Below, piece after piece: positions 4,269-49,418 of a DNA stretch of 58,057 nt. Location: IMG/VR virus record IMGVR_UViG_3300025435_000024, positions 1 to 58,057 of that record; one strand, given 5' to 3'. Position 1 is the first letter of the stretch; every line of letters starts with the position of its first letter. The translations under genes were made by a program, and so were the position numbers. The notes beneath the pieces are model-generated. The model was not told where the DNA came from, did no database searches, and saw only the letters and a list, made by a program, of their open reading frames with translations. Source of the DNA: a virus.

Positions 4269-4606
4269 TATTGACCAACTCCATATGTAATATTAAGCGT
4301 GGCATTGCCACCAGTCGTGATAGCAGAGAAATATCCACCATACACATCATTGACTAAAAGATATGCTCCAGGAGCTAATTCAATACCGCCATTAACAGTA
4401 TTAGTAGGTACAGCAGCAACTACAGAACTATCTCCAAAAGCAATAAAGATAGGATAAGTATTAGTAGTAGGACTAAATAACAGTAGTGATTCAATATTTA
4501 CTGGAGAATAAGAAGGATAAGCTGTAGCACTAAGTGCGCTAGTTGTAATTGTATACTTACGAGTACTATTAGCAGCACATGGTGAGAAGTTAGCAATAGT
4601 AGCCAT
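4268..4606 (-). CDS. Beta-rich small virion-type protein, 112 aa
   Basis: The product contains alternating polar and hydrophobic strands (YTITTSALSATAYPSY, NIESLLLFSPTTNTYPIFIA) and a Gly-rich end. It is coupled by one-base overlaps to its neighbours. The pattern suggests a compact beta-sandwich, possibly a decoration or fibre-base protein; this is inferred from composition and position only. Confidence 0.6.
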   Translation of the reverse strand: MATIANFSPCAANSTRKYTITTSALSATAYPSYSPVNIESLLLFSPTTNTYPIFIAFGDSSVVAAVPTNTVNGGIELAPGAYLLVNDVYGGYFSAITTGGNATLNITYGVGQ

Positions 4607-4947
4607 TACACTAACACCACATAAGCGCCTGTAGTTGTACCATCAGCACTGGCTACAAAACACCTCACATAAGGAGCAAGGCAATCAAATGCCAAAGCTA
4701 CCTGAGTCGTATTAGGAGATATCGCAGATGTAATTGTAGCAGTCATATCCTGCCATAGCGTACCGTCAGGACTACCTTGCACCTTCACAGTAAATTGCGT
4801 ACCACTTGTCGTCCAAGCCATTAAAGCCCTACGAGTCGTACCAGCAATATTACGTGGATTAGAAATTGTGCTACCAGCACCATTAGCAGCAGTACCGTTT
4901 GTGGAAGGTAAAAGCACTAATGGTTGGACTGCTTCTGATGCAGACAT
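4606..4947 (-). CDS. Beta-rich small virion-type protein, 113 aa; first gene after the minus-strand promoter
   Basis: The ATG at 4947 follows AAGGAGTAACT, a strong ribosome site. The product has the phrase WTTSGTQFTVKVQGSPDGTLW and then DMTATITSAISPNTTQVALAF, resembling beta-sandwich modules found in phage structural proteins. It is the first minus-strand gene leftward of the divergent control region, directly downstream of the promoter at 4974-5002. Confidence 0.65.
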   Translation of the reverse strand: MSASEAVQPLVLLPSTNGTAANGAGSTISNPRNIAGTTRRALMAWTTSGTQFTVKVQGSPDGTLWQDMTATITSAISPNTTQVALAFDCLAPYVRCFVASADGTTTGAYVVLV

Positions 4948-4973
4948 AGTTACTCCTTGTGGGATGAAACAAT

Positions 4974-5002
4974 AGTATATGTGTAAAAAAAGTGTAAGTC
5001 AA
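4974..5002 (-). promoter_or_regulatory. Sigma-70-type promoter for the minus-strand (late/tail) unit
   Basis: On the minus strand, TTGACT (4997-5002) and TATACT (4974-4979) are separated by exactly 17 bases. Transcription would begin near 4967, about 20 bases before the ATG at 4947. If the window ends are joined it could drive the whole structural unit. Confidence 0.65.
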
Positions 5003-5015
5003 GTATTATTTTTGA

Positions 5016-5044
5016 TTGACATTTAAATGATTTTGATATAGTAT
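5016..5044 (+). promoter_or_regulatory. Sigma-70-type promoter for the 5.05-5.69 kb RNA
   Basis: TTGACA (5016-5021) and TAGTAT (5039-5044) are 17 bases apart, inside a TATAGTATATT context. The same -35, spacing and TATAGTATATT block occur in the minus-strand promoter at 49390-49418. No open reading frame of credible quality follows on this strand before the terminator at 5661. Confidence 0.7.
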
Positions 5045-5050
5045 ATTCTG

Positions 5051-5694
5051 GTGATGGAAGTGATGACTCCATCTAGGAACTCTATTGGCTACCTCAGCCC
5101 GCAACAAACGCATATCAGGTTTAAAGACCCATATTGCAGCGTGTTCCGTCCAAAGCCCCACTTTAAGGATTAGGGGGTAAGAGTAGGCTCTGTGACGAAC
5201 CACAACCTACAAGTTCTACACGGTTTCTTAGCAGCTGTGTAGACTGCGTTGTATAGGTGATGAGATACATAGATACTGAACCGGACTTAAGTACCCAAAT
5301 TCTTTAGTTCAGTCTATGTAGCAGGAGACAGCACAACCTCCCTCCATGATGCTACTAGGGCTATATAGACTGGAATGCCCCATCATGTCTCTGCTAAGCT
5401 CTATTCGTGTGGCTCCAGACTTCAAGGGCTATCGGATACATCTAGTCTACTACAGGCTAGGTGTATCCGGTACACCACCTTCAAGCTCCGCAGGAATGGC
5501 TACGCAAATAGATATATAATATATTAATATATATTAATATGGGTAGCGAATCTTTAAAAAACTAATAAAAACAATAACTTAATAAAACTATATTTGTAGC
5601 TACAAACAACATGATACCAGAATATTTATTGTTACAGGTCTAAATTGTATAAAAATTATAATAGCTTAGCATGTTTTTGCTAGGCTATTTTTTT
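5051..5694 (+). ncRNA. Candidate large structured non-coding RNA, about 640 nt
   Basis: The segment is bounded by a promoter (5016-5044) and an intrinsic terminator (5661-5694) and has no plausible gene. It is packed with helices. GATGGA/TCCATC (5053-5058/5068-5073). ACCTACAA with TTGTATAGGT (5205-5212/5249-5258), enclosing TCTACAC/GTGTAGA (5215-5221/5237-5243). A 13-pair arm with a 2-nt bulge (5267-5281/5307-5319). GTAGCAGGAG with CTCC...TGCTAC (5318-5354). A 13-pair hairpin (5433-5445/5457-5469). GGCTAC with GTAGC, closing an AT-rich stem near 5501-5547. Size, ornate folding and a phage setting recall GOLLD and ROOL RNAs, but I cannot show that it belongs to either class. Confidence 0.55.
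5661..5694 (+). terminator. Intrinsic terminator of the structured RNA
   Basis: ATAGCTTAGCA (5661-5671) pairs with TGCTAGGCTAT (5678-5688) with one G-U pair, around a six-base loop, and is followed directly by a run of seven T (5688-5694). This is the clearest plus-strand intrinsic terminator in the window. Confidence 0.85.
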
Positions 5695-6057
5695 ATGTTT
5701 GTTTGATACTGTTGTAAATGATAAGCTATATTGTGGTACTTTATAAGTGATATACTACATGAAGTATGTGTATGTATGTTATTGTTACTGTTGTGTTTTT
5801 GGTAATTTATAGCAGTGACATATATACATATATATCAACGCTCAGTCCCCAGCCTACCCCCCTCTACAGCTATACAGCTAACCATACATACATATAACTG
5901 TATATACAGCGATACAAACAGAGAACAAATATTGAATGATATTCGTTTCATTCATTCTGCATTGTTTAATGATTAATGATTTGTCATTACCATTTCATTG
6001 CTGTGTCAGTATGTCGCATAGGGCTATAAAGCCATTTAAAAGGCCGTACAGGGCTAT
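5695..6057. other. AT-rich intergenic stretch, possible replication-origin area
   Basis: No gene is seen. The stretch is low in GC, with TATATA-type runs, a 12-base palindrome CTGTATATACAG (5898-5909), and repeated ATTCATT/AATGATT words at 5931-5985. A weak promoter-like pair TTGATA (5703-5708) and TATATT (5727-5732), 18 apart, lies just after the terminator. AT-richness next to divergent promoters would suit an origin, but nothing here proves it. Confidence 0.3.
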
Positions 6058-6087
6058 TTGACAGATTATGGCACTACGCCCTATAAA
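6058..6087 (+). promoter_or_regulatory. Promoter for the early plus-strand unit, overlapped by an inverted repeat
   Basis: TTGACA (6058-6063) and TATAAA (6082-6087) lie 18 bases apart. An inverted repeat, GACAGATT (6060-6067) and AATCTGTC (6086-6093), brackets the promoter and could be an operator. Transcription would start near 6094 and run through the repeats and leader into the small early genes beginning at 6999. Confidence 0.6.
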
Positions 6088-6119
6088 TCTGTCCACATAA
6101 GTCAACCAATGAAATCAAT

Positions 6120-6169
6120 ATGTTAGCCCTTAACTGGCTACAAAATGTTAGCCCTTAACTGGCTACAAA
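6120..6169 (+). repeat. Two perfect 25-bp tandem repeats containing a dyad
   Basis: Two identical copies, 6120-6144 and 6145-6169, abut each other. Each contains the inverted repeat TAGCC-CTTAACT-GGCTA. They sit just downstream of the promoter at 6058-6087. They could be operators, iterons of an origin, or paired RNA stems in the leader. Confidence 0.85.
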
Positions 6170-6239
6170 GTGGACATTTTGTCTACAAATAACATATCAA
6201 ATCCTGGCATAAATCATGCATAACCAAATAAAGGTTAAT

Positions 6240-6956
6240 AATACCCGGACAATATTCATGCAGCATATACCAGTCATATCTAGGTGATATGTAGCACATA
6301 TGGCACAATTCTTACTCATACGCAGACACGCGCTTATCCACTATTCGCGGGTATAGGGAATTAGAATAACTCTAAACTAGACGGCCTGATAGAAACTGTG
6401 GCAAATATAACACAAGTGCGACGGACTGCCGCACCCTCACATTTTTCAAAAATATCGCTAGACATTCCAAAATCATGGGCCTATACCTTGTCCATCGAAG
6501 GCGAACACAACGGCTTGGGGGCCTATCCCACCCTCCCTTCGATTAGATGATCCTCGTCTAGCTAGTGCAAAATAACGCACAATAACATGGCTAGGGCAGG
6601 CACTCTCTAGCGGTCACGGTGAAGGTATGCGAAGGCATACAGGCACTAAGCAAGCCGCCCCTCTCCACAAGTGAGAGTGTAAACAACCAGAAACCGGCGA
6701 AATATGGCACGGTTCAATCTGGTTGGTCCTAGTATAACTCCCTATGATTGGATATGCACACGCACCTCTTAGCTTAGCCATACCGACTCGGTGAAGGATA
6801 AGTGTTCTCCTGCCCCTATCTTCTAATTTGGAGCCAAGCTAGAGACAAAACATTAAACCGATTAGGCTGGCCTGACACTCTGGCCTAATCAATCAATCAA
6901 TACTTACTAAGCACTAGTCACTGTGACAATTAAATCACAGATTGGCTAGTGCTTCC
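6240..6956 (+). other. Hairpin-rich untranslated leader or second structured RNA
   Basis: No credible gene is found. Many local helices are visible: GTGCG/CGCAC (6416-6434), ATCGAAGG/CCTTCGAT (6494-6543), GTATGC-GAAG-GCATAC (6625-6640), CTCTC/GAGAG (6661-6677), AACCAGA with TCTGGTT enclosing CCG/CGG (6685-6724), GATTAGGC/GCCTAATC (6860-6890), and a long composite hairpin pairing AAGCACTAG with CTAGTGCTT around CTGTGA/TCACAG (6909-6953). It lies between the 6058 promoter and the first early gene, so it may be a long 5' leader or a separate RNA processed from it. Confidence 0.4.
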
Positions 6957-6998
6957 TTGTGTTGATTACGTCTTAACCTTAACTCTTGGAGAATTGCT

Positions 6999-7226
6999 AT
7001 GAGCGCACAACAATTGACTGAAAAGAAAACGTATCTGGTTCGTTACTTGTCAAAAGCGGGTAAAGGTGGCGATGCTACCACATTCCGCTACACTGAAATT
7101 CAAGCCAAGAATATTGAGCAGGCTAAACTTAAGGCTGAAATGCTTATGGATGATAAGGATTGCTTCACCTATGATGTGATTGATCCTATCGTATTGCATA
7201 GCGTAACAGCGGGAGTAAAAGCATAA
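6999..7226 (+). CDS. Small early protein, 75 aa
   Basis: ATG at 6999 after TTGGAG. The product has a beta-strand start (KKTYLVRYLSKAG) and a helix (IEQAKLKAEMLMDD) in a compact alpha/beta pattern. It is the first gene of the plus-strand early cluster. Function unknown; small early phage proteins of this kind often act in host takeover. Confidence 0.75.
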   Translation: MSAQQLTEKKTYLVRYLSKAGKGGDATTFRYTEIQAKNIEQAKLKAEMLMDDKDCFTYDVIDPIVLHSVTAGVKA

Positions 7227-8261: not shown

Positions 8262-8372
8262 ATGACTAATAACCAGGTTACTAATCATAGACCTATTGAC
8301 TATGTAATAGATGCTATAGCATTAGCATTGTTTATATTCATGGTCTACTCATGGAGCATTGCATTGACATGA
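8262..8372 (+). CDS. Single-pass membrane peptide, 36 aa
   Basis: ATG at 8262, one base after the previous stop. The product has a polar N-terminus and one membrane segment (AIALALFIFMVYSWSIAL). Its stop codon overlaps the ATG of the next gene. It could be a small membrane effector; no family recognised. Confidence 0.5.
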   Translation: MTNNQVTNHRPIDYVIDAIALALFIFMVYSWSIALT

Positions 8373-9022
8373 CTACATACTACCACTTCACACCTAAGTC
8401 TAGTAATGCTAAGACTGGACCTATACCAGTTACTACTACGTCACGTAATAGTTGTCCTGATACTTGTGCATTCAAGAACAATGGATGCTATGCTGAGTCA
8501 GGACCATTGCGTATACATTGGAATAAAGTAAGTGATGGTTCTAGGAGTATTACATTGGAGCAATTGCTTGGTCATATACAATCATTACCTACGGGTGCAT
8601 TATGGAGACATAACCAAGCCGGGGATGTATCTGAACAGGATGTAATTAACATTGCTATTGCTAATGTAGGGCGTAAAGGTTTTACATATACTCATAACCA
8701 TTCATTGCTTATGGGTCGTAAGATTAAAGAATGTAATGCTTATGGGTTCACTGTAAACCTTAGTGCCAATAACTTAGAACATGCTGACAAGTTACTTGAC
8801 CTTAACATTGGTCCAGTATGTAGCGTAGTACCATCAGACTATCATGTGCACGGTGGCATGACGCCTAAAGGACGCAGAGTTAAAGTATGTCCTGCCACAC
8901 AATTAGATCATGTCAATTGTGCTAATTGTGGTCTATGTCAGATTGCTAATCGAGATTATGTTATTGCTTTTCCTGCACATGGTACGGGTAAGCGCAAAGC
9001 TAATGGAGTGGCTAATGGTTGA
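8369..9022 (+). CDS. Cys-rich conserved phage protein (DUF7227-like)
   Basis: Start at the ATG at 8369, in an ATGA overlap with the gene before; the earlier in-frame ATG at 8351 lies inside that gene. The 217-residue product carries the phrase KTGPIPVTTTSRNSCPDTC, then NGCYAESGPL, LWRHNQAGD, GFTYTHN, FTVNLSANN and a C-terminal CPATQ...CANCGLC cluster ending in AFPAHG. I recognise this combination from many phages, where it is annotated as a DUF (DUF7227 as I recall). Its clustered cysteines suggest metal binding. The biochemical role is unknown. Confidence 0.75.
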   Translation: MTTYYHFTPKSSNAKTGPIPVTTTSRNSCPDTCAFKNNGCYAESGPLRIHWNKVSDGSRSITLEQLLGHIQSLPTGALWRHNQAGDVSEQDVINIAIANVGRKGFTYTHNHSLLMGRKIKECNAYGFTVNLSANNLEHADKLLDLNIGPVCSVVPSDYHVHGGMTPKGRRVKVCPATQLDHVNCANCGLCQIANRDYVIAFPAHGTGKRKANGVANG

Positions 9023-10898: not shown

Positions 10899-12855
10899 AC
10901 GTAGCGATGCGTTTGTATCTAACACATTCAACATTAGTGCTGGAGCGAAAGCATTCGAGGTGCTTAGCTCTGGTATCTATTCTAACAAACCCGCAGCAGT
11001 AGTCCGTGAGACACTGTGTAATGCTGTTGATAGCCATAAGGAACAAGGTAATGCTAGCACTCCAATACTTCTGCATTGTCCTAATCGCCTTGAACCTTGG
11101 TTCTCTGTACGTGATTATGGTACAGGGATGTCACACGAAAAGGTTACTAACTTATACTCTACCTATTTTGGTTCAGATAAGTCAAATAGTAATCTGGGCA
11201 TTGGTGGCTTTGGTCTAGGTTCTAAAGCACCACTATCATATGTAGATAGCTTCACTGTTACTGTATGGCATGGCAACAAGAAGCGTGTGTATAATGTATT
11301 TAAGAATGAGGATGCTATTCCTGAGATTGCTTTATTACATGAACAAGATAGCATTGAGCCTGTAGGTGTAGAGGTTAAAGTACCTGTAAAGACACAAGAT
11401 ATTGATGACTTTATTCGTCAGATCACTATATATACCAGGTATGCTACTATACCTGTTGAGTGTGTTGGTGCTAAGATTACGCATAATAAGCGTAACTATA
11501 TCTATGAAGGTTCAATTTGTAAGGTGCATGATGAAGGTCATTGGAATGATCATACCATTACGTTTGTAGTTGGTGGTGTACCTTACGAGCATTCGCATTC
11601 AGAAATTATTAATCTAAGTATCACATTACCTGAATGCAGTCTAGAAATGCACCTACCTATTGGTAGTGTAGAAATTGCTGCCAGCCGTGAGAAGATTAGT
11701 GCTAAGCCAACTACCATTAAGTACATTCAATCTGTTATTGATGCTGAACGTGCTACTGCTAGTAAAGCTATCAACAATCAAGTATTGAATGCAGATACAT
11801 ACAAAGATGCTTTGAATATTATTGTAGACAAAAGCACTAAGTGGATTAAGTTTGATTGTAAATGGTTAGATAAGAATACTGGCATTACTCATAATCTTGA
11901 AAGAGATAAGGTATACCAGAGTGATGGATTCCATGTACACTACATGGAAGACAATCTAAACCTTATATCAGAGCGCTATAGTAAGAATCGAATACGTTTA
12001 AACTTTACTGAATCGCCTGTAGTTATTCTTGTAGATGTTAGTACGAACTGGAGAGCTAAGGTTCGTCAGTATGGTAAACCTTGTTGGGTTGTGAATAAGG
12101 TTATTGCTTATTGGCAGGATGCTGTTTGGGATAAGGTTGTATCCGATAATACACATCGTGTTACATTTCTTAAGATTTCTGAGTTACCTTACATTAAGAC
12201 TGATATTACTAAGAACTCAGCTAGGGCTAATACAATTACTGTATGGGACCATAGTAAGAAAGATGTTAATTTAACAGAAATTACTGATCCTTTGCATGTA
12301 TTTGTAGGTACAGTCAAAGACCTTAAGTATACCTACATTAATTATAAAGAAGTGTTTGGCGTTAGAGCTGGTATCATTACATATGTTCAATATCGTAAAG
12401 CGTTGAACATTAACCCTGATATGATTATCAATGCTATAGATAATCTTGAAGAGTTCTGTAAAGATACTGAGGATAACAAAGATTTTATTAATTGGCTTTC
12501 AACAGTGAAAGGAGAAACACCTTATATTGCATATGGAGTTAGAAGGGGTATAGACAAACTAAATAAGACATACAAGTGCAAATGGACTGATGAATTATAT
12601 ATGTTTGCTAATGACCATGAGTCAGCAGATTATATGTTTGCAAAGGATTGTATATATAGGTACAATGTTGCCTGTGATTTATTGAGTCGTGAAAAGCAGT
12701 CAAATATTAAATTGTCATCGGCCAAAAGTTGGCCTAGTAAGTACGAGTGGATACCTGAATCGGTATTGAAAATGCTTGGTGACTCATACGACATTCATGA
12801 AACAAAGAAGTTAGTTGAATTATTAAACAGCGGTGCAAAGGAGCACGGACTATGA
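10867..12855 (+). CDS. rIIA: RIIA-like protein with GHKL ATPase domain
   Basis: This 662-residue protein begins with a GHKL-type ATPase fold. Visible boxes are the N box RETLCNAVDSH (47-57), DYGTGMS (83-89) and the glycine lid GIGGFGLGSKAP (111-122). These are the hallmarks of phage RIIA proteins, known in T4 for lysis-inhibition control and for countering Rex exclusion at the host membrane. AAGGA precedes the ATG. The gene overlaps an HNH remnant at its start and the rIIB gene by four bases at its end (ATGA). Role in this phage is inferred from T4. Confidence 0.85.
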   Translation: MILAGANRQIERSDAFVSNTFNISAGAKAFEVLSSGIYSNKPAAVVRETLCNAVDSHKEQGNASTPILLHCPNRLEPWFSVRDYGTGMSHEKVTNLYSTYFGSDKSNSNLGIGGFGLGSKAPLSYVDSFTVTVWHGNKKRVYNVFKNEDAIPEIALLHEQDSIEPVGVEVKVPVKTQDIDDFIRQITIYTRYATIPVECVGAKITHNKRNYIYEGSICKVHDEGHWNDHTITFVVGGVPYEHSHSEIINLSITLPECSLEMHLPIGSVEIAASREKISAKPTTIKYIQSVIDAERATASKAINNQVLNADTYKDALNIIVDKSTKWIKFDCKWLDKNTGITHNLERDKVYQSDGFHVHYMEDNLNLISERYSKNRIRLNFTESPVVILVDVSTNWRAKVRQYGKPCWVVNKVIAYWQDAVWDKVVSDNTHRVTFLKISELPYIKTDITKNSARANTITVWDHSKKDVNLTEITDPLHVFVGTVKDLKYTYINYKEVFGVRAGIITYVQYRKALNINPDMIINAIDNLEEFCKDTEDNKDFINWLSTVKGETPYIAYGVRRGIDKLNKTYKCKWTDELYMFANDHESADYMFAKDCIYRYNVACDLLSREKQSNIKLSSAKSWPSKYEWIPESVLKMLGDSYDIHETKKLVELLNSGAKEHGL

Positions 12856-19962: not shown

Positions 19963-20036
19963 GCTCAGTTCGTATAATGGCATTACGTCAGTTTTGTAAT
20001 CTGATCATGGGGGTTCGATTCCTCCACTGAGCACCA
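19963..20036 (+). tRNA. tRNA-Thr(UGU)
   Basis: The acceptor GCTCAGT pairs with ACTGAGC and ends in encoded ACCA (20033-20036). The anticodon loop TTTGTAA gives anticodon UGU, reading ACA threonine codons. The T-arm GGGGG-TTCGATT-CCTCC is canonical, with one G-U pair. The D-arm is GTA...TAC with GG in the loop. The encoded CCA is typical of phage and many bacterial tRNAs. It would supplement the host supply for an AT-rich genome. Confidence 0.9.
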
Positions 20037-20105: not shown

Positions 20106-23100
20106 ATGACGCTTGCAGTGGTCGTTGATGTGGAGCACGAGATTACGTGTCTAGATTCTGATAAAGATAAGTGGGATTATAGCCCATACAATCCAAGTAA
20201 TCGTTTAGTATCTGCGGGATGGAAGTTTATTCAGGACGGTAAGATTATAGGTAACACAGAGTATAGGTTCTTTAATCACGCAGAGGGTTCAGATGAAGAT
20301 TCTTTCAACGTATTACAAGCAGCATTGTCCAAAGCAGACGTATTTGTTGGACACAATGCGAAACATGATTACAACTGGCTTCATGAGTGTGGGTTTACTT
20401 TGCCTGACACTATTCATTGTACTTTTATTGCAGAATATGTCTTGGCAAGGGGTTTATCCGTAGCATTAGATTTAGGTTCTGTTGCTGAACGCTATCATGT
20501 AACGCAGAAAAAGGGAGACATTGTAAGTGAGTATTTGGATCAAGGAATCACTTTCTTTAACATTCCTAAGCCTGTGGTGCTTGAGTACGGGATTGCTGAT
20601 GTTGATGCTACTGCTGACCTATATATTGCCCAGCTTAAAGAATACGGTAAGTCTACCAACATTGGACTGGTGCCTACTAGGGACTTGTCTTATGAGTTTT
20701 GCAGCGTCCTTAGTGCTATGGAGCGAAATGGAATAGCCATTGATCAGGAGGCATTAGCATCCGTTAAACAGGATTATGAGAATGAACGATTAGAACTCAA
20801 GCAAAAGTTAAGAGAATTAACTCAAGCGATTATGGGGGATTATCCTTATAATCTGGCAAGCCCTGAACAGCTTAGCCAGATTATTTATTCCTATAAGATC
20901 GTTGACAAAGTTAAGTGGATTGAGCAGCTTAACATTGGCGTTGACGAGCGTGGCAAGGATAAGCGTAGACCTAAGATGCACAAGCTAGAGCTAGAGGCTC
21001 TGGTTAAGGATTGCATGGACCCAGTGTATCGTATGAAGGCTAAGCAATGTCCTGTGTGTGAAGGCTTAGGTAAGATTCAGAAAGTTAAGAAAGATGGAAC
21101 TAATCATAAACGTCAAAATAAGTGCAGCAACTGTGGAGGGCATGGACTGCTCTATGAACCAACTACAACCCGTGCGGGATTTGGTATTCAATTTGGGGGA
21201 GTTGAAGATGCCAGCATCGGAGGCTTTAGCACTGATAAACATACACTTACCCGGATACATTCGGGATTGGATGAGTCGAGCCAAGCAGGAGCTAGAGAGT
21301 ATCTCTCCTGTATCATGCGACTCAACGCCATTGACACCTACATCGACTCCTTCTGCGTAGGTATTCAGCGAGCAGTACAGAAGGACGGATTACTACATGC
21401 TAAGTTTAACCAGTGCATTACCAAGACCGGGCGACTATCATCCACAGACCCAAATCTACAAAATCAGCCAAGAGGGAAAACCTTTCCAATTCGCAAGGTA
21501 TTCACTTCCCGTTTCCCAAATGGAGAGTTATGTGACACAGATTTTAGCCAGCTTGAATTTCGTGCTGCTGTTCATCTTGCTCGTGATGAGCGAGGCCGAG
21601 AACATATCCTTCAAGGAATAGATGTACATAATCAGACTGCAAAGATTTTGAGTGATGCTGGGCAAAAGACGGATCGTCAGGCTGCTAAGAGTCATTGTGT
21701 ACCTATGAACACAGAAGCTCTGACACGTGACGGTTGGAAGAAGTATGATGAACTTACTGTCGGTGAGGACATTTTAACTTTTAATCCTGTTACTAAGCAA
21801 AATGAGTGGAAGCCTATTCTGGCCTTGTCACATTACAAAGCTCAGGATGTTTACAGGCTGCGTAATGGACACTGGGAAATGTTTGCTACGAGTGACCACA
21901 AGTGGTTTGGCCGTAAGCGCGTTGATAATGGACAGACCAGAGAGTACCAAGATCGTGTATTTACGACTTCTGATATTAACCAGAGCTATGAAATTCGTAC
22001 ATCTGCATATTGTCCAGAAGGTGCGTTGAACATTTCTGATGATGAAGCAGCTATTCTGGGATGGCTGTGGATGGATGGTCACACAAATGTTAAAGATAAT
22101 ATAGTTCGTTGTGCCACTATAGTTCAGAGTACCAAAAAAGGAACAATTTTCACAAAGTTAGTAGAGTTATTAAAGCGGGTTGGCATAAACACAGATGTAA
22201 AAATGCAGAGTAACCAAGCACACTATTTTAACATTCCCTTAAAACTATTAAGAGACATTTATAAAAAGTGTAATTTTGGAATAGAGATTGACTACGTTAA
22301 ATTTGTATTATCTTTAAATGTAAATGCTCGTAGGGCTTGGTTACAGGCTGTAATAGATGCTGAAGGAACCGACAGAGGTTTTGGAGTTGTCCGTATTGCA
22401 CAGAATGTTGGAGGCAAATGTGAAGCTATTAAATTAGCAGCAATACTAGAAGGCTATGAAATTCGTGTTACACAGGCAGTATTTTATACCAATAAACTGC
22501 ATGAGCAAATTACTTTACGCACACGTCAATACGTTACAGGTCAGCGATTAAAGATTGACAAGTATTCTGTTGAAGATGTATGGTGTCCCATGACTGAGAA
22601 TGGTACATGGGTCATGCGTCAAGACAAATTTGTTAGTATTACTGGCAACAGCTTCAAGCCTTTGTATGGTGGGCTAAGTGGAACACCAGCAGAAGTAGTT
22701 TATTATAAGCAATTTTTACAGATATATAATAGTATAGCCAAGTGGCATGAGGAGTTAGGTGATGAAGCTGTCAGAACCAAATGTATACGGCTACCTACTG
22801 GCCGTGAGTATGCTTTTCCATTTGCTAAGCGTAATCATTATGGGGGAGTTAGCAACAAAACTCAGATCGTCAATTTCCCAGTTCAAGGATTTGCCACGGC
22901 TGACATTGTTCCTGCTGCAATTTGCGTCTTGGCTAGAGCTTTTAAAAAACACAAGCTTAGGTCTTTGCTTGTTCTTACTGTTCATGATTCTGTTGTCGTA
23001 GATATATACCCAGGTGAGAAAGAGAAAGTTGTGTCACTGATGAAAAAATTACATAATATGGCAGAATGGTACTTGAAAACTGTTCATGGAATTGATATGT

Positions 23101-23162
23101 ATGTGCCCCTAATGTCCGAAAGCAAAGTTGGTCATAATCTATTACAGATGGAGACAGTGTGA
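20106..23162 (+). CDS. Family A DNA polymerase with DnaJ-type zinc insert and an intein
   Basis: The 1018-residue precursor has a 3'-5' exonuclease domain (VVDVEHE near 6-12, FVGHNAKHDYNWL, and YGIADVDATADLY). A cysteine module CPVCEGLGKIQ...CSNCGGHGLLYEP lies near 316-350. The polymerase domain follows (motif A DTDFSQLEFR; motif B RQAAKSH with SFKPLYGG after splicing; motif C VLTVHDSVV). An intein occupies residues 531-848, leaving a 700-residue enzyme, close to T7 polymerase in length. A DnaJ-like insert between exonuclease and polymerase parts is a trait I recall from HMO-2011-type phages. AGGG precedes the ATG. Confidence 0.92.
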   Translation: MTLAVVVDVEHEITCLDSDKDKWDYSPYNPSNRLVSAGWKFIQDGKIIGNTEYRFFNHAEGSDEDSFNVLQAALSKADVFVGHNAKHDYNWLHECGFTLPDTIHCTFIAEYVLARGLSVALDLGSVAERYHVTQKKGDIVSEYLDQGITFFNIPKPVVLEYGIADVDATADLYIAQLKEYGKSTNIGLVPTRDLSYEFCSVLSAMERNGIAIDQEALASVKQDYENERLELKQKLRELTQAIMGDYPYNLASPEQLSQIIYSYKIVDKVKWIEQLNIGVDERGKDKRRPKMHKLELEALVKDCMDPVYRMKAKQCPVCEGLGKIQKVKKDGTNHKRQNKCSNCGGHGLLYEPTTTRAGFGIQFGGVEDASIGGFSTDKHTLTRIHSGLDESSQAGAREYLSCIMRLNAIDTYIDSFCVGIQRAVQKDGLLHAKFNQCITKTGRLSSTDPNLQNQPRGKTFPIRKVFTSRFPNGELCDTDFSQLEFRAAVHLARDERGREHILQGIDVHNQTAKILSDAGQKTDRQAAKSHCVPMNTEALTRDGWKKYDELTVGEDILTFNPVTKQNEWKPILALSHYKAQDVYRLRNGHWEMFATSDHKWFGRKRVDNGQTREYQDRVFTTSDINQSYEIRTSAYCPEGALNISDDEAAILGWLWMDGHTNVKDNIVRCATIVQSTKKGTIFTKLVELLKRVGINTDVKMQSNQAHYFNIPLKLLRDIYKKCNFGIEIDYVKFVLSLNVNARRAWLQAVIDAEGTDRGFGVVRIAQNVGGKCEAIKLAAILEGYEIRVTQAVFYTNKLHEQITLRTRQYVTGQRLKIDKYSVEDVWCPMTENGTWVMRQDKFVSITGNSFKPLYGGLSGTPAEVVYYKQFLQIYNSIAKWHEELGDEAVRTKCIRLPTGREYAFPFAKRNHYGGVSNKTQIVNFPVQGFATADIVPAAICVLARAFKKHKLRSLLVLTVHDSVVVDIYPGEKEKVVSLMKKLHNMAEWYLKTVHGIDMYVPLMSESKVGHNLLQMETV
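21696..22649 (+). mobile_element. Intein in DNA polymerase motif B (318 aa, LAGLIDADG type)
   Basis: Residues 531-848 of the polymerase. It starts with Cys (CVPMNTEALTRDGWKKYDEL), has a splicing block B (FATSDHKWF), two dodecapeptide-like endonuclease motifs (ILGWLWMDGH and WLQAVIDAEGTD), and ends SITGN, followed by Ser as the +1 residue. Extein flanks RQAAKSH/SFKPLYGG rebuild the O-helix motif. The usual penultimate His is Gly here. Splicing must occur for polymerase function, because the intein splits the dNTP-binding helix. Confidence 0.88.
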
Positions 23163-28005: not shown

Positions 28006-31000
28006 ATGCAGAATCTCCCTACCCCGTATCAAGAGTTCATTTTTAAGTCTCGTTATGCCCGCTGGGTGGATAGTGAGAATCGTCGTGAGAATTGGCCTGA
28101 AACAGTAAAGCGTTACTTTGACTTTATGGTTCGTCATCTATCCAAGAATATGAACTATGAAGTTGATAAAAATGTTCGTAATGAATTAGAACAAGCTGTA
28201 CTTAATCTAGAAATTCTGCCGTCCATGCGAGCTTTAATGACTGCTGGACCGGCACTTGAACGGGATGCTATCTGTGGCTATAACTGTTTTAGTGGGTATC
28301 AAAAATTCCTAACTAAAGAGTATGGATTAGTTAGATTTAAACATGTTCCGAGTACATCTGTTACAGTGCTTAATAAAAATAAAGAATGGGTGCCAGCAGA
28401 AATTAAATCTTTTGGCAACCAAAAGCTAATTCCTTTAGCGTTTGGACATGATAACACCAAGCGCACAGTATGGGCAACCGAGGGGCACGACTGGCTTCTG
28501 GAAAATGGTGAAAAAGTAAAGTCCAAATACCTGCGTGTTGGCGATAAAATTCCATACATTACTGCGCCAAAAATTGTCAGCAATAACATTGACTATGTTC
28601 GTGGTGTACAACACGGATTAGTTTATGGAGATGGCACTGTCACAAAAAGCGCAGAACGAGTGAAGGGTTATCATATTCGCCTCTGTGGCGATCAAAATGA
28701 TCTACTACCATACTTTGAAGGCTACCCAGTAACATATCCGCCATCCACAAATGGTGAACCTGTAATAATGATGTATGACGGATTTGCTAAAACGCACAGT
28801 CTAAAAACATTGCCTGATATTTCTGAAACGTCAGATTATCTGATTGGATTTTTCCGTGGGTGGATGGCTGCTGATGGCGCTGTTGCTGCCAATCATCAAG
28901 TCAGTCTGTGTTGCTCAGAAGAAGAGGCAGAATGGTGTAAGACTGTAATGTCTATTCATGGTTATACATTTTCTGTCTGGTCTAGATTGCCTGATACTAC
29001 TAATTTTGGCGAACGTAAGAAAATTTCTGGTAGGCTTTACGTTGATAGAGCCTCTTTAGATTCTGAAGATTTTATTATACAGCGTAAACGCGATAATTTT
29101 AAACCTGCTAAAATTACTTGGTCTTATCGTGGAGAAGACGAAGAAGTAAAAAAAGTACGAGTTGAGGCTGGGTTAGATGCGTACATGTATGATGAAGTCT
29201 ACTGTGCAGTAGTTCCTAATACACACACTTTTACATTGGAGAGTGGAATTGTCACCGGAAATTGTGCCTATCTTACTGTCGATGATCTACGTGCCTTTGA
29301 TGAGTGCCTTGTTATTCTCATGTCGGGTACAGGGGTGGGCTTTTCAGTCGAACAGAAATACGTGGATAAGTTACCTACTGTGGCTGAGCATTTTGAACGA
29401 TCTGATACTACTATCGTTGTAGATGATTCTAAAGCAGGTTGGGGTAGGGCATTACGTGAGCTTATCACTCTCTTATATTCTGGACAAATTCCTAAGTGGG
29501 ATGTATCTAAGCTACGTCCTGCTGGTGCAAAACTTAAAATTATGGGAGGTCGTTCTAGTGGGCCTGAGCCTCTTGTTGACTTGTTTAATTTTTGTGTACA
29601 CACTATTAAGTCTGCAAAAGGACGACGACTAACTACGTTAGAGTGTCATGACCTTGTCTGCAAAATTGCAGAAGTAGTTGTTGTAGGTGGGACACGTCGA
29701 AGTGCGTTAATTTCATTATCAGATTTGTCAGATGTGCGTATTCAGACAGCTAAATCTGGTCAGTGGTGGCTAACACATCCACATCGTGCGTTAGCTAATA
29801 ACTCTGCTGTGTACCATGATGATGTGACGCTAGACCAGTTCATGGATGAATGGAAGGCATTGTATCAATCTGGTTCAGGAGAACGTGGAATTATAAATCG
29901 TGACGCCATGCAACGAATTATGGCTAGGAATGGACGCAGAGATTCTAATCATTTGGTAGGCACAAATCCGTGTGTTCCTGGTGACACTTTAATCCTTACA
30001 GATCAAGGATATAAAGAGATTAAAGATTGCGTAGATAAAGAGACAGTTATCTGGAATGGCAAAGAATGGAGCAAAGTTAAACCATTCTCTACTGGTTTTA
30101 ATCCGTTAGTTCGAGTGCATTTTTCTGATGGTACGTACCTTGACTGTACGCCTTACCACAAGTTTGTATTGGCTGGTAATGTACGTGTCATGGCATGTGA
30201 ATTGGCACCGGGAGAACGGCTAGAGAAGTTTAAAATGCCAGTTGTTGAAACTGGTATTGAATACTCTGTTGACGCCTATAGTCAAGGTTTCTATTCAGGC
30301 GACGGTACAAAGAATATTAAACATTCTAATTTGTATAATACAAAATATATGTGTCAAAATCGTCTGGTTGGCACGTTTAGTGAAGAGCATTATGATAAGC
30401 GTAAAACATGGAAACATGGTGCTATGTTTACAAAAGATTTTGTGCCAGTTGATGGCACAAAAGAGTATTGCTTAAACTGGCTTGCAGGTATTCTAGATAG
30501 TGATGGTACAGTTACACGAGACATTAATGGAAACGGTGTACAAATTGGCTCTATTGATAAAAACTTTTTGTTAAACATTCGCCTGATGTTGACTCGTCTT
30601 GGTGTACAGGCTAAGATTAGCACAGGTAATGTTGCTGGTATGCGCCCATTGCCCGATGGTCGTGGTGGCACTGCTATGTATCAGTGTCAAACTGGTTATC
30701 GTTTATTGATTGGTAACACAGACACATATCATCTGTTGTATATTGGGTTAAAGTGTAATCGCTTGGAGTTGCATAATAATGCGCCACAACGTGATGCTCG
30801 TAGGTTTGTACAAGTAACTGGCGTTACAGATTTAACTAATTATGATGAATACGATTATGGATATACAGAGACTTTCTGTTTTACAGATGAGCTAAATAGC
30901 ACAGGTACATTTAATGGAATTGTCACAGGAAACTGCTCTGAAATCATTCTACGACCACAGCAATTCTGCAATCTCACTTCAGTCATTTGTCGATCAAGTG

Positions 31001-31863
31001 ACACTCCAGATATTCTTGTACGGAAAGTCACACTGGCTACAATCCTTGGAACATGGCAATCGACTCTTACCCATTTCAAGTATCTACGAAAGAAGTGGAA
31101 AGATAACTGTGACGAAGAACGACTGCTAGGCGTAAGTCTTAATGGTATTGCAGACTCATTTCTAGGTACTAATGCACCTTATTACACTAAGCCAGTACTA
31201 AATCAACTAAAAGAGGCTGCTATCAATGCAAACAAGGTTTGGGCAGATAATCTTGGTATTAATGTGTCTACTGCTATTACTTGTATTAAGCCTGAAGGTA
31301 CTACTTCTCAACTTGTTAATTGTAGCAGCGGTATCCATAGCCGCCACGCTCCTTATTACATTCGACGAGTGAGGCAGGATAACAAAGACCCATTGACACA
31401 GTTTATGAAGGACCAAGGCGTACCGTGGGAGCCATGTGTACTTAACCCTAACCAAATATCTATCTTTAGCTTCCCTATTGCTGGTCCAGAGAATACAGCA
31501 CAGTCAGCTATTCATCAGCTTGAGCAATGGAAGGCATTTCAAGAGTCCTACACAGAGCATAAGCCTAGCATTACTGTAACCATTAAAAATAATGAATGGC
31601 TTGATGTAGCTGCCTGGGTATGGAAGAATATGTCCATCATGTCTGGTGTATCGTTCCTGCCTGATGCTACAGAAGGTAATGTCACATATCAGCAGATGCC
31701 ATATGAAACCATTACCAAAGAAGAATATGAAAAACTTGAAGCAGTTATGCCAAAAACACTTGACTGGGATAAGCTTTCACAGTATGAATTAGAGGATACT
31801 ACTACAGCCAGCAAAGAATTTGCATGTGTTGGTGATGTGTGTGAAGTTGTGGGGAGTGCATGA
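28006..31863 (+). CDS. Class II (B12-dependent) ribonucleotide reductase with two inteins
   Basis: The 1285-residue precursor splices to about 638 residues. Extein sequence includes DAICGYN/CAYLTVDDL, MSGTGVGFSVE, KIAEVVVVGGTRRSA, TNP/CSEIILRPQQFCNLTSV (thiyl-radical Cys and its partner), TCIKPEGTTSQL and a C-terminal CVGDVC pair. This fits the monomeric adenosylcobalamin-dependent RTPR family. It makes deoxynucleotides without oxygen but needs host B12. Two inteins sit at residues 94-419 and 656-976, each immediately before a catalytic Cys. ThyX and MazG genes nearby complete the nucleotide set. Confidence 0.92.
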   Translation: MQNLPTPYQEFIFKSRYARWVDSENRRENWPETVKRYFDFMVRHLSKNMNYEVDKNVRNELEQAVLNLEILPSMRALMTAGPALERDAICGYNCFSGYQKFLTKEYGLVRFKHVPSTSVTVLNKNKEWVPAEIKSFGNQKLIPLAFGHDNTKRTVWATEGHDWLLENGEKVKSKYLRVGDKIPYITAPKIVSNNIDYVRGVQHGLVYGDGTVTKSAERVKGYHIRLCGDQNDLLPYFEGYPVTYPPSTNGEPVIMMYDGFAKTHSLKTLPDISETSDYLIGFFRGWMAADGAVAANHQVSLCCSEEEAEWCKTVMSIHGYTFSVWSRLPDTTNFGERKKISGRLYVDRASLDSEDFIIQRKRDNFKPAKITWSYRGEDEEVKKVRVEAGLDAYMYDEVYCAVVPNTHTFTLESGIVTGNCAYLTVDDLRAFDECLVILMSGTGVGFSVEQKYVDKLPTVAEHFERSDTTIVVDDSKAGWGRALRELITLLYSGQIPKWDVSKLRPAGAKLKIMGGRSSGPEPLVDLFNFCVHTIKSAKGRRLTTLECHDLVCKIAEVVVVGGTRRSALISLSDLSDVRIQTAKSGQWWLTHPHRALANNSAVYHDDVTLDQFMDEWKALYQSGSGERGIINRDAMQRIMARNGRRDSNHLVGTNPCVPGDTLILTDQGYKEIKDCVDKETVIWNGKEWSKVKPFSTGFNPLVRVHFSDGTYLDCTPYHKFVLAGNVRVMACELAPGERLEKFKMPVVETGIEYSVDAYSQGFYSGDGTKNIKHSNLYNTKYMCQNRLVGTFSEEHYDKRKTWKHGAMFTKDFVPVDGTKEYCLNWLAGILDSDGTVTRDINGNGVQIGSIDKNFLLNIRLMLTRLGVQAKISTGNVAGMRPLPDGRGGTAMYQCQTGYRLLIGNTDTYHLLYIGLKCNRLELHNNAPQRDARRFVQVTGVTDLTNYDEYDYGYTETFCFTDELNSTGTFNGIVTGNCSEIILRPQQFCNLTSVICRSSDTPDILVRKVTLATILGTWQSTLTHFKYLRKKWKDNCDEERLLGVSLNGIADSFLGTNAPYYTKPVLNQLKEAAINANKVWADNLGINVSTAITCIKPEGTTSQLVNCSSGIHSRHAPYYIRRVRQDNKDPLTQFMKDQGVPWEPCVLNPNQISIFSFPIAGPENTAQSAIHQLEQWKAFQESYTEHKPSITVTIKNNEWLDVAAWVWKNMSIMSGVSFLPDATEGNVTYQQMPYETITKEEYEKLEAVMPKTLDWDKLSQYELEDTTTASKEFACVGDVCEVVGSA
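28285..29262 (+). mobile_element. Intein 1 of RNR (326 aa, LAGLIDADG type)
   Basis: It begins CFSGYQKFLTKEYGLV after DAICGYN and ends LESGIVTGN, followed by Cys of CAYL. Endonuclease motifs are VQHGLVYGDGTV and LIGFFRGWMAADGAV. A block B-like WATEGHDWL is visible. The penultimate residue is Gly, not His. The +1 Cys corresponds to the first redox-active Cys of the reductase. Confidence 0.87.
29971..30933 (+). mobile_element. Intein 2 of RNR (321 aa, LAGLIDADG type)
   Basis: It begins CVPGDTLILTDQGYKEIKDC after LVGTNP and ends FNGIVTGN, followed by Cys of CSEI, the expected thiyl-radical cysteine. Endonuclease motifs are YSQGFYSGDGT and WLAGILDSDGTV. The block B-like segment is LDCTPYHKFVLAG. 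Its last residues match those of the other two inteins in this window. Confidence 0.88.
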
Positions 31864-47153: not shown

Positions 47154-48357
47154 TTAACCGCGCTGCCAATAGACACGGGCCAAAGCTTCTGGACGGAGAG
47201 CCTTACGACCATACAGATGCAGACCACGAACCACGTCAGCAAAGCTGTCTGGATCACGATATGTTTCTGTCTTGGCAATCTGACTAACTGTAGCGACCGC
47301 AGACATATGACCAGCTAAAATGGTACCATAGTTGCCTGTACCAGTTGCATCCGAACCCGAACCACCTGTAACCAATGAGTTTGACAAGTAGCAATCAAAG
47401 CCGCGAATCTTACCTTCGATAACGCGACCATTCCACATGCCGGGACGCATTGGCGAAGTTGAGTCACCAGTTTGATTGACTTGCATCAAACGGCTTTCTT
47501 CAGCTTGCATTTGTTCCCAAAAGAACGGTTCAGCAACAACCCAGCGACCATCCGTAGGCACGTTAGCTTCGTCAAACTTACGGTTCAAACGAGCCAAAAT
47601 GTTCAGAGGAGAGAAGCCACCTGCTGGCGGATTGACACGCACAACAGAAGGAGTTGAAGAAGAGCCAATTGTGATGTTGGTATTAGAAGCAATGTAAGAC
47701 AACACTTCAGCGTCAAAGGCATCTTTCAACTTAAACGCAGCGCGTTCAGTTGCCAAAGATTCCCAGTTGACGTGAGATTGTTTAGCTTCAATGTCGTCAA
47801 CCTTAAATGCAAACTTGTTCGCATGGTCAACAACCAACGTAATATCCGTATCAATCAAATCAGTCGGAGTGATCGACTGTCCACGAACGTACGGAGATAC
47901 GATAATATCCGGTTCCAGAATGATGTGGACGCTATCGCCGTAGTTAGCGATTTCACCAGAATAATCAGTATTCGTAATAGCTTCCACGACGGAAACACGA
48001 CGAAACTTCTTCAGAACTTTCTGAGAGTAGATGGTAGGGCTGAATGCTCCGTTCCTAAGTCATTGATTTCTCAATGTGTCCAGGCTCTTTATCCTGGCTC
48101 CACTATATTTCTATAGTGAGTAGACTATATCATCATTCCGTAGAATGTTGGGCGCTCGTGTCAGGATTATTCTTTCGTCACCTGTTAGTCGTTGAACCTT
48201 CTAAATCCCTGGGGATAAATCCTTACGTATTTAGCTTGGCTGCTGATTGACTTCACCTTTACGTGGTCAGCTTTTCCAGCAATTCACCCAATTTTACCGT
48301 CCCCTAACGATTTTGAGAAGGGAGGTTTCCATAGCCCGCGCTAGTGGAAAATGCCAA
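47154..48357 (-). CDS. Major capsid protein (spliced; two exons)
   Basis: Exon 1 is 48319-48357 and starts at TTG, nine bases after AGGAG: MAFSTSAGYGNLP. Exon 2 is 47154-48053 and starts NGAFSPTIYSQKV. Joined, they read in frame to about 312 residues with YGNLPNGAFSPTIYS, VSVVEAITNTDYSGEIANYG and a C-terminus ending RVYWQRG, as in HK97-fold capsid proteins of this phage type. A 265-nt group I intron (48054-48318) separates the exons. Without splicing, only a frame from GTG at 47987 would be visible. The TTG start is unusual for a highly expressed gene. Confidence 0.85.
48054..48318 (-). ncRNA. ORF-less group I self-splicing intron in the capsid gene
   Basis: On the minus strand the exon end CCCT and the first intron base pair with AGGGG of the internal guide (P1, with the conserved U-G at the splice site). 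CGTT, just before that guide, pairs with AACG at the start of exon 2 (P10). The intron ends in G. Core signatures are present: TTGCTGG / TCAGCAGCCAAGC (P4-P6), GGTTCAACGACTAA (P3/P7) and GATATAGTC (P7/P3). Removal restores the capsid frame. Confidence 0.9.
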
Positions 48358-48452
48358 TTTAGTAACTCCTATGTTATAAGTTTTTTAAGTTTATAGTCTA
48401 GGGCTGTTACAAGAGGGGTACTTTTCAGGGCCATCTATCACAGGTTATCTAA

Positions 48453-48992
48453 CTACTTATTATTTTTGTACCTGACGAGTAGTTCTGCCCATCGCAGAAG
48501 ATCGTCCTCAATTAGGTTTTGTTTAATTTTGTTTACATACCAGCAAACAAATTAAACATTCCCTTCACAGTATCCAACGCTTGAATCAATTCTATCTAAT
48601 GACATTAGTTCTTGCGAGGATTTTAAAAAGTTCATGGTTACACCCGTAAGTGCACATTTACCTTTTTGTCTATTGTATAAATCTTCTAAATAACTAAAAG
48701 TTAAATTAAAATTAGATTTATTTCTTTTATTGGCAGAATCTAAACAATATTTAAGTCTACCAATTAATGTACTATTTCTAGTTCTTTGCTGTTCACGATA
48801 AACAGGTAAACGATTTTTTCTATAATTTAAACGTCTATCTTTTTCTTTTTGATAACGTCTACGATTATTTTCCTGCTCACATGCTTTACACCATGGACGA
48901 ATTCTATTACGTTTATTATTTCCTGTTACAGGATCATATTCATTGCGCGATTTAAGAACATTACAAATTTTACATGTTTTATGTGTTAGCAT
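48453..48992 (-). pseudogene. HNH homing endonuclease with premature in-frame stop
   Basis: The ATG at 48992 follows AAGGAAGG. A zinc finger (CKICNVLKSRNEYD and CKACEQ), basic linker and HNH core (GKCALTGVTMNF, SLDRIDSSVGYCEGNV) are followed by TAA at 48552-48554. The same frame then continues with FVCWYVNKIKQNLIEDDLLR to a TAG at 48453-48455, matching the normal HNH end 'NVQ(W/F)VC..VN.mK'. CAA to TAA would explain the stop. The gene lies directly upstream of the intron-bearing capsid gene. Either inactive, read through, or a truncated active protein. Confidence 0.75.
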
Positions 48993-49389: not shown

Positions 49390-49418
49390 ATACTATACTA
49401 CAAAAAATACCTTGTCAA
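49390..49418 (-). promoter_or_regulatory. Sigma-70-type promoter upstream of the capsid region
   Basis: On the minus strand TTGACA (49413-49418), a 17-base spacer, and TAGTAT (49390-49395) inside TATAGTATATT, identical in layout to the plus-strand promoter at 5016-5044. It would boost transcription of the small membrane gene, HNH region and capsid gene. Confidence 0.7.

Follow-up and report, generated by a model that had tools for sequence, protein, structure and literature searches.

A candidate untranslated transcription unit in the divergent control region of a podovirus of the HMO-2011 type

Carrier virus and locus

The DNA analyzed here (hereafter the window) is a virus contig of 58,057 bases (IMGVR_UViG_3300025435_000024), in which no end repeat was found. 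The terminase it encodes shares ~60% identity with that of Puniceispirillum phage HMO-2011 and with that of Roseobacter phage CRP-1, and the contig follows the genome plan of these phages, in which leftward structural genes are followed by a divergent control region and then by rightward genes for rIIA/rIIB-like proteins, primase, helicase, and DNA polymerase. The gene order flanking the control region is also similar to that of HMO-2011-type relatives. Judging from the terminase relatedness and the shared genome plan, the carrier is an HMO-2011-type podovirus. The only tRNA gene of the window lies at 19963-20036, 14 kb from the region described here. The features of the control region are as follows.

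4974-5002, minus strand: leftward promoter TTGACT-17-TATACT, corresponding in position to a 12/12 TTGACA-17-TATAAT of relatives
5016-5044, plus strand: rightward promoter TTGACA-17-TAGTAT (10/12), expected start site near 5050
5049-5694, plus strand: proposed untranslated transcript of ~640 nt
5268-5374, plus strand: three-part inverted repeat, in which 5308-5322 has two alternative partners, 5268-5282 (13 pairs) and 5360-5374 (15 pairs)
5385-5515, plus strand: long irregular hairpin of 131 nt and 51 pairs
5516-5659, plus strand: A+T-rich spacer (~20% G+C) without a significant fold of its own
5660-5696, plus strand: intrinsic terminator (stem 5660-5689, 12 pairs, loop of 6, seven T)
5819-5862, no strand assigned: A+T-rich, then C-rich stretch (TATACATATATATCAACGCTCAGTCCCCAGCCTACCCCC) resembling by eye the control region of relatives
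6842-6974, plus strand: leader of the first rightward open reading frame (ORF; start at 6999), with a strong fold

Boundaries of the putative unit

A preliminary description of this DNA had proposed that about 640 bases between a TTGACA-17-TAGTAT promoter and a textbook terminator contain no credible gene and encode a large, ornate non-coding RNA of the GOLLD and ROOL kind or of a new class. Its account of the boundaries was borne out. The promoter sequence is present at 5016-5044, back to back with the leftward promoter (5002-4974), which probably serves the minus-strand genes, and another TTGACA-17-TAGTAT sequence, with ATT after it, is present at 49418 on the minus strand. Promoter-like matches are no commoner in this AT-rich stretch than in shuffled DNA (three found, 8.1 expected). 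The terminator has the form that had been claimed for it, and a 19.9-kb stretch from another part of the window contained no stem this long with such a T tail. ORFs of 50-65 amino acids occur between the two signals, none of them with a Pfam match. Judged by sequence, 5049-5694 would be a free-standing transcription unit, in which promoter, gene-free interval, and terminator follow one another in the proper orientation. Its RNA would be framed alone, unmerged with a neighboring gene, since the next rightward ORF begins 1.3 kb downstream, at 6999; a further promoter-like site lies between the terminator and that gene, at 5703.

Predicted fold

The whole region folds more stably than its shuffles (z -5.3 on the plus strand, -4.6 on the opposite strand), and nearly all of this excess stems from 5385-5515. 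The hairpin at this place surpasses 200 shuffles (z -6.4 on the plus strand, -3.6 on the minus strand), and of the 579 stretches scanned across the window, 5401-5600 has the most extreme fold. The hairpin is stronger on the plus strand because its G-U pairs turn into mismatches on the other strand. Its core is a perfect helix of 19 pairs (5430-5448/5454-5472) closed by the loop ACUAC, so that the stem previously reported as 13 pairs at 5433-5469 exists but is longer than described. By contrast, the first 354 nt (5049-5402) fold like their own shuffles (z -0.04 and -0.07). The energy test scores neither pseudoknots nor tertiary contacts, and an ornately folded 5' half is thus unsupported by it, yet compatible with it.

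The "many long helices" of the preliminary description can accordingly be retained as individual stems, including the hairpin and the inverted repeat, but not as extensive structure along the whole RNA, where 5385-5515 and the terminator are the only conspicuous parts. Among the nested stems placed at 5205-5258, an 11-pair stem (5215-5225/5233-5243) is present. The stem placed at 5267-5319 was recovered as 5267-5272 plus 5276-5281 pairing with 5307-5312 plus 5314-5319, and competes with the 15-pair stem 5308-5322/5360-5374. The latter repeat exceeds chance, as none of 400 shuffles reached it. Because 5308-5322 can pair with either 5268-5282 or 5360-5374, the 13- and 15-pair stems, which have 5308-5320 in common, are mutually exclusive.

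Such an either-or arrangement upstream of a terminator suggests the main rival to a self-contained unit, namely that 5049-5694 is the attenuated leader of a rightward early transcript. Polymerase starting at 5016 would normally halt at 5690, and a switch between the exclusive stems of 5268-5374, or an antitermination factor, would allow it to read through past the origin-like region into the genes from 6999 onward. The early genes do lie on the same strand beyond the terminator, and in related phages the first rightward gene is directly preceded by a structured leader (see below). However, the terminator is 1.3 kb away from the first gene with the promoter-like site at 5703 intervening, the terminator stem is not overlapped by any stem that could serve as its antiterminator, and no homologue turned up for comparison. 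We regard this explanation as unlikely, although it deserves to be kept in mind.

An antisense role was considered and dropped, because the RNA has no complementarity to the rest of the window beyond 12-18 bases.

Comparison with known RNA families

To our knowledge, only a few large untranslated RNAs have been described from phages, and their roles are unclear. ROOL self-assembles into a homo-oligomeric cage, lake samples were among the first sources of GOLLD, HEARO occurs in association with IscB-type nucleases, and put of phage HK022 is an antiterminator leader RNA of ~70 nt. No match of the region to any Rfam 15 model was obtained at the gathering score, and the matches at E ≤ 10 in 4900-7000 and 5040-5700 were those expected by chance. 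The covariance models of GOLLD, ROOL, OLE, and HEARO, which the preliminary description had singled out, were all unmatched in both spans even at this permissive threshold, so that membership in any of these families is not supported.

ROOL is a phage-encoded, untranslated RNA of the ~600 nt size class with unknown function, and the large RNAs known from phages have been described along with their tRNA neighborhood (PMC12286853). The putative RNA of the window is like ROOL in size class, phage origin, and untranslated state, but it has no adjacent tRNA gene and its 5' half is mostly without significant structure. It shares with GOLLD a large size and a phage origin, while it is shorter, does not match the conserved 3' domain of GOLLD, and lies far from the single tRNA gene, whereas GOLLD is found near phage tRNA genes. 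OLE and HEARO are likewise large, structured, untranslated RNAs; no IscB-type nuclease was noticed among the neighboring ORFs, as judged from the ORF list. Like put, the RNA would be a structured RNA just downstream of an early phage promoter, a likeness that was checked through Rfam only.

Search for relatives of the RNA

No DNA similar to the RNA region was found in INPHARED or PLSDB. Pattern scans of IMG/VR and GTDB with a 14-mer (CTCCGCAGGAATGG) and a 16-mer (AGCCCGCAACAAACGC) from the RNA gave chance matches only, and the read-through translation, used as a multi-pattern probe, found nothing in either database; as such scans depend on short exact words, diverged RNAs may escape them. No homologue was present in 50 related or neighboring contigs, searched as whole records, and a covariance model of the hairpin run over 49 sources matched the window itself and nothing else. 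Protein-based searches with 4606-4947 or rIIA yielded no relative spanning the region, and those with 8351-9022 and the terminase yielded many phages, none with the insert. A 13.6-kb contig from another sample (L083) is identical to the terminase side of the window, but stops short of 5049-5694. The RNA is therefore best described as a candidate orphan, known from a single sequence, on the basis of short exact patterns in IMG/VR and GTDB together with the INPHARED and PLSDB searches. Homologues with covarying helices, which would define a new RNA class, were not found in these searches.

Control regions of relatives

The divergent control regions of eight relatives were read directly (L005, L010, L011, L018, L025, HMO-2011, CRP-1, and MW202701). 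The HMO-2011-type relatives (HMO-2011, CRP-1, and the IMG/VR contigs) share with the window the genome plan, the divergent control region, the leftward promoter, which is strong (12/12) in several of them, the C-rich element, and the structured leader. In contrast, an equivalent of 5049-5694 was absent from all eight, including the long control region of MW202701. A conserved rightward promoter had been suspected from a similarity beginning with ACATTTAAGTG in L005 and relatives; this candidate was dropped, as the similarity has an E value of ~3 and the strong promoter there is leftward.

The absence from relatives, together with the chance-level fold of the 5' half and the frequency of promoter-like matches in AT-rich DNA, is what would be expected if no functional RNA were made, and if non-coding DNA had accumulated in or been inserted into the control region, the inverted repeat being a chance product or a fossil. 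This seems distinctly unlikely to us. The hairpin goes beyond 200 shuffles and is stronger on one strand, and the terminator is rightly placed; moreover, in genomes as compact as those of phages, 640 bases of ballast would be unusual.

The A+T-rich and C-rich stretch at 5819-5862 is possibly near a replication origin. The cumulative GC skew changes from falling to rising at ~6-8 kb, near this proposed origin region, and the adjoining position of the unit raises the alternative that transcription from 5016 toward the A+T-rich region primes or activates the origin. We consider this the least probable account of the locus, because the relatives retain the origin-like region without the RNA, the skew turn coincides with the change in gene direction, and the origin itself is a proposal.

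Other repeats were seen in these control regions. A 25-base unit (CAATATGTTAGCCCTTAACTGGCTA) occurs in two tandem copies, 96% alike, at 6116-6165 of the window, and the control region of MW202701, a freshwater-spring relative, has a long run of CTACAGCACTACAG-type short repeats (L313, 8121-8250).

A structured leader upstream of the first rightward gene

A second structured element lies at 6842-6974 (z -6.5; -7.3 on a slightly different span), without an Rfam match. A strong hairpin is present at the corresponding place in L005, L010, L011, and CRP-1 (z -5.1 to -6.7), and counterparts were found by sequence match in L012, L303-L308, and L310. The leader coordinates in the relatives are as follows.

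L005, 7133-7210
L012, 460-538
L305, 2115-2193
L307, 1761-1837
L308 (HMO-2011), 11816-11891
L010, 7505-7595
L011, 8856-8946
L311, 7943-8033

The counterparts in one subgroup of relatives show real compensatory changes. In its five distinct sequences, 94.9% of the cells pair and both sides change in six of the 32 pairs, with three adjacent compensatory changes converting GGTTAGT/ACTAACC to GGTTTTA/TAAAACC. The covariation score of these five sequences was reached by none of 500 shuffles, a figure that is not a probability, as the rows are related. The window is excluded from these counts, its 6842-6974 being assigned by position and fold alone. This leader is better supported as an RNA than the 5049-5694 unit.

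Interpretation of the unit

The reading of 5016-5696 that we favor, tentatively and with somewhat less than even confidence, is a self-contained untranslated transcription unit that works as a free RNA. Host RNA polymerase would probably initiate at the TTGACA-17-TAGTAT promoter, which stands back to back with that of the leftward genes. Release at the terminator near 5694 would then yield an RNA of ~640 nt. The dominant feature of this RNA would be the 131-nt irregular hairpin, with the either-or two-stem repeat upstream, and it may function at the RNA level early in infection, most probably as a free regulatory or decoy RNA whose long hairpin binds a host protein. The promoter, the terminator, the absence of genes, and the strand-biased hairpin all fit expression of an untranslated transcript from the divergent control region, as the preliminary description had supposed. 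What argues against the unit is that it is a single sequence, that its first 354 nt are at shuffle level, that promoter-like matches are common in AT-rich DNA, and that the relatives manage without it.

The further suggestion of a new large ornate class is weaker, as most of the 5' half folds no better than its shuffles and the searches above brought up no homologue. We would call the unit a plausible candidate on one sequence, rather than a demonstrated large ornate RNA or member of a giant-RNA class. That it represents, as its first known example, a new class of large phage RNAs, unrelated to GOLLD and ROOL, acquired by a lineage of HMO-2011-type phages and acting in trans during infection, appears improbable. 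If real, an orphan RNA in an HMO-2011-type control region would be useful, as some relatives are cultured and the insert-free region is available for comparison.

Intron and probable inteins elsewhere in the window

A Group I intron was recognized by Rfam at 48101-48388 (minus strand), a short way upstream of the frame for the major head protein (47154-47987). The profile match of that frame starts only at position 60, and the ORF at 48552-48992 resembles an HNH endonuclease on reading. This intron probably splits the gene for the head protein. On the plus strand, the ribonucleotide reductase frame (28006-31863) includes a LAGLIDADG domain as well as a weak intein splicing match, while the match of the family A DNA polymerase frame (20106-23162) is interrupted by a long insert; both frames carry probable inteins.
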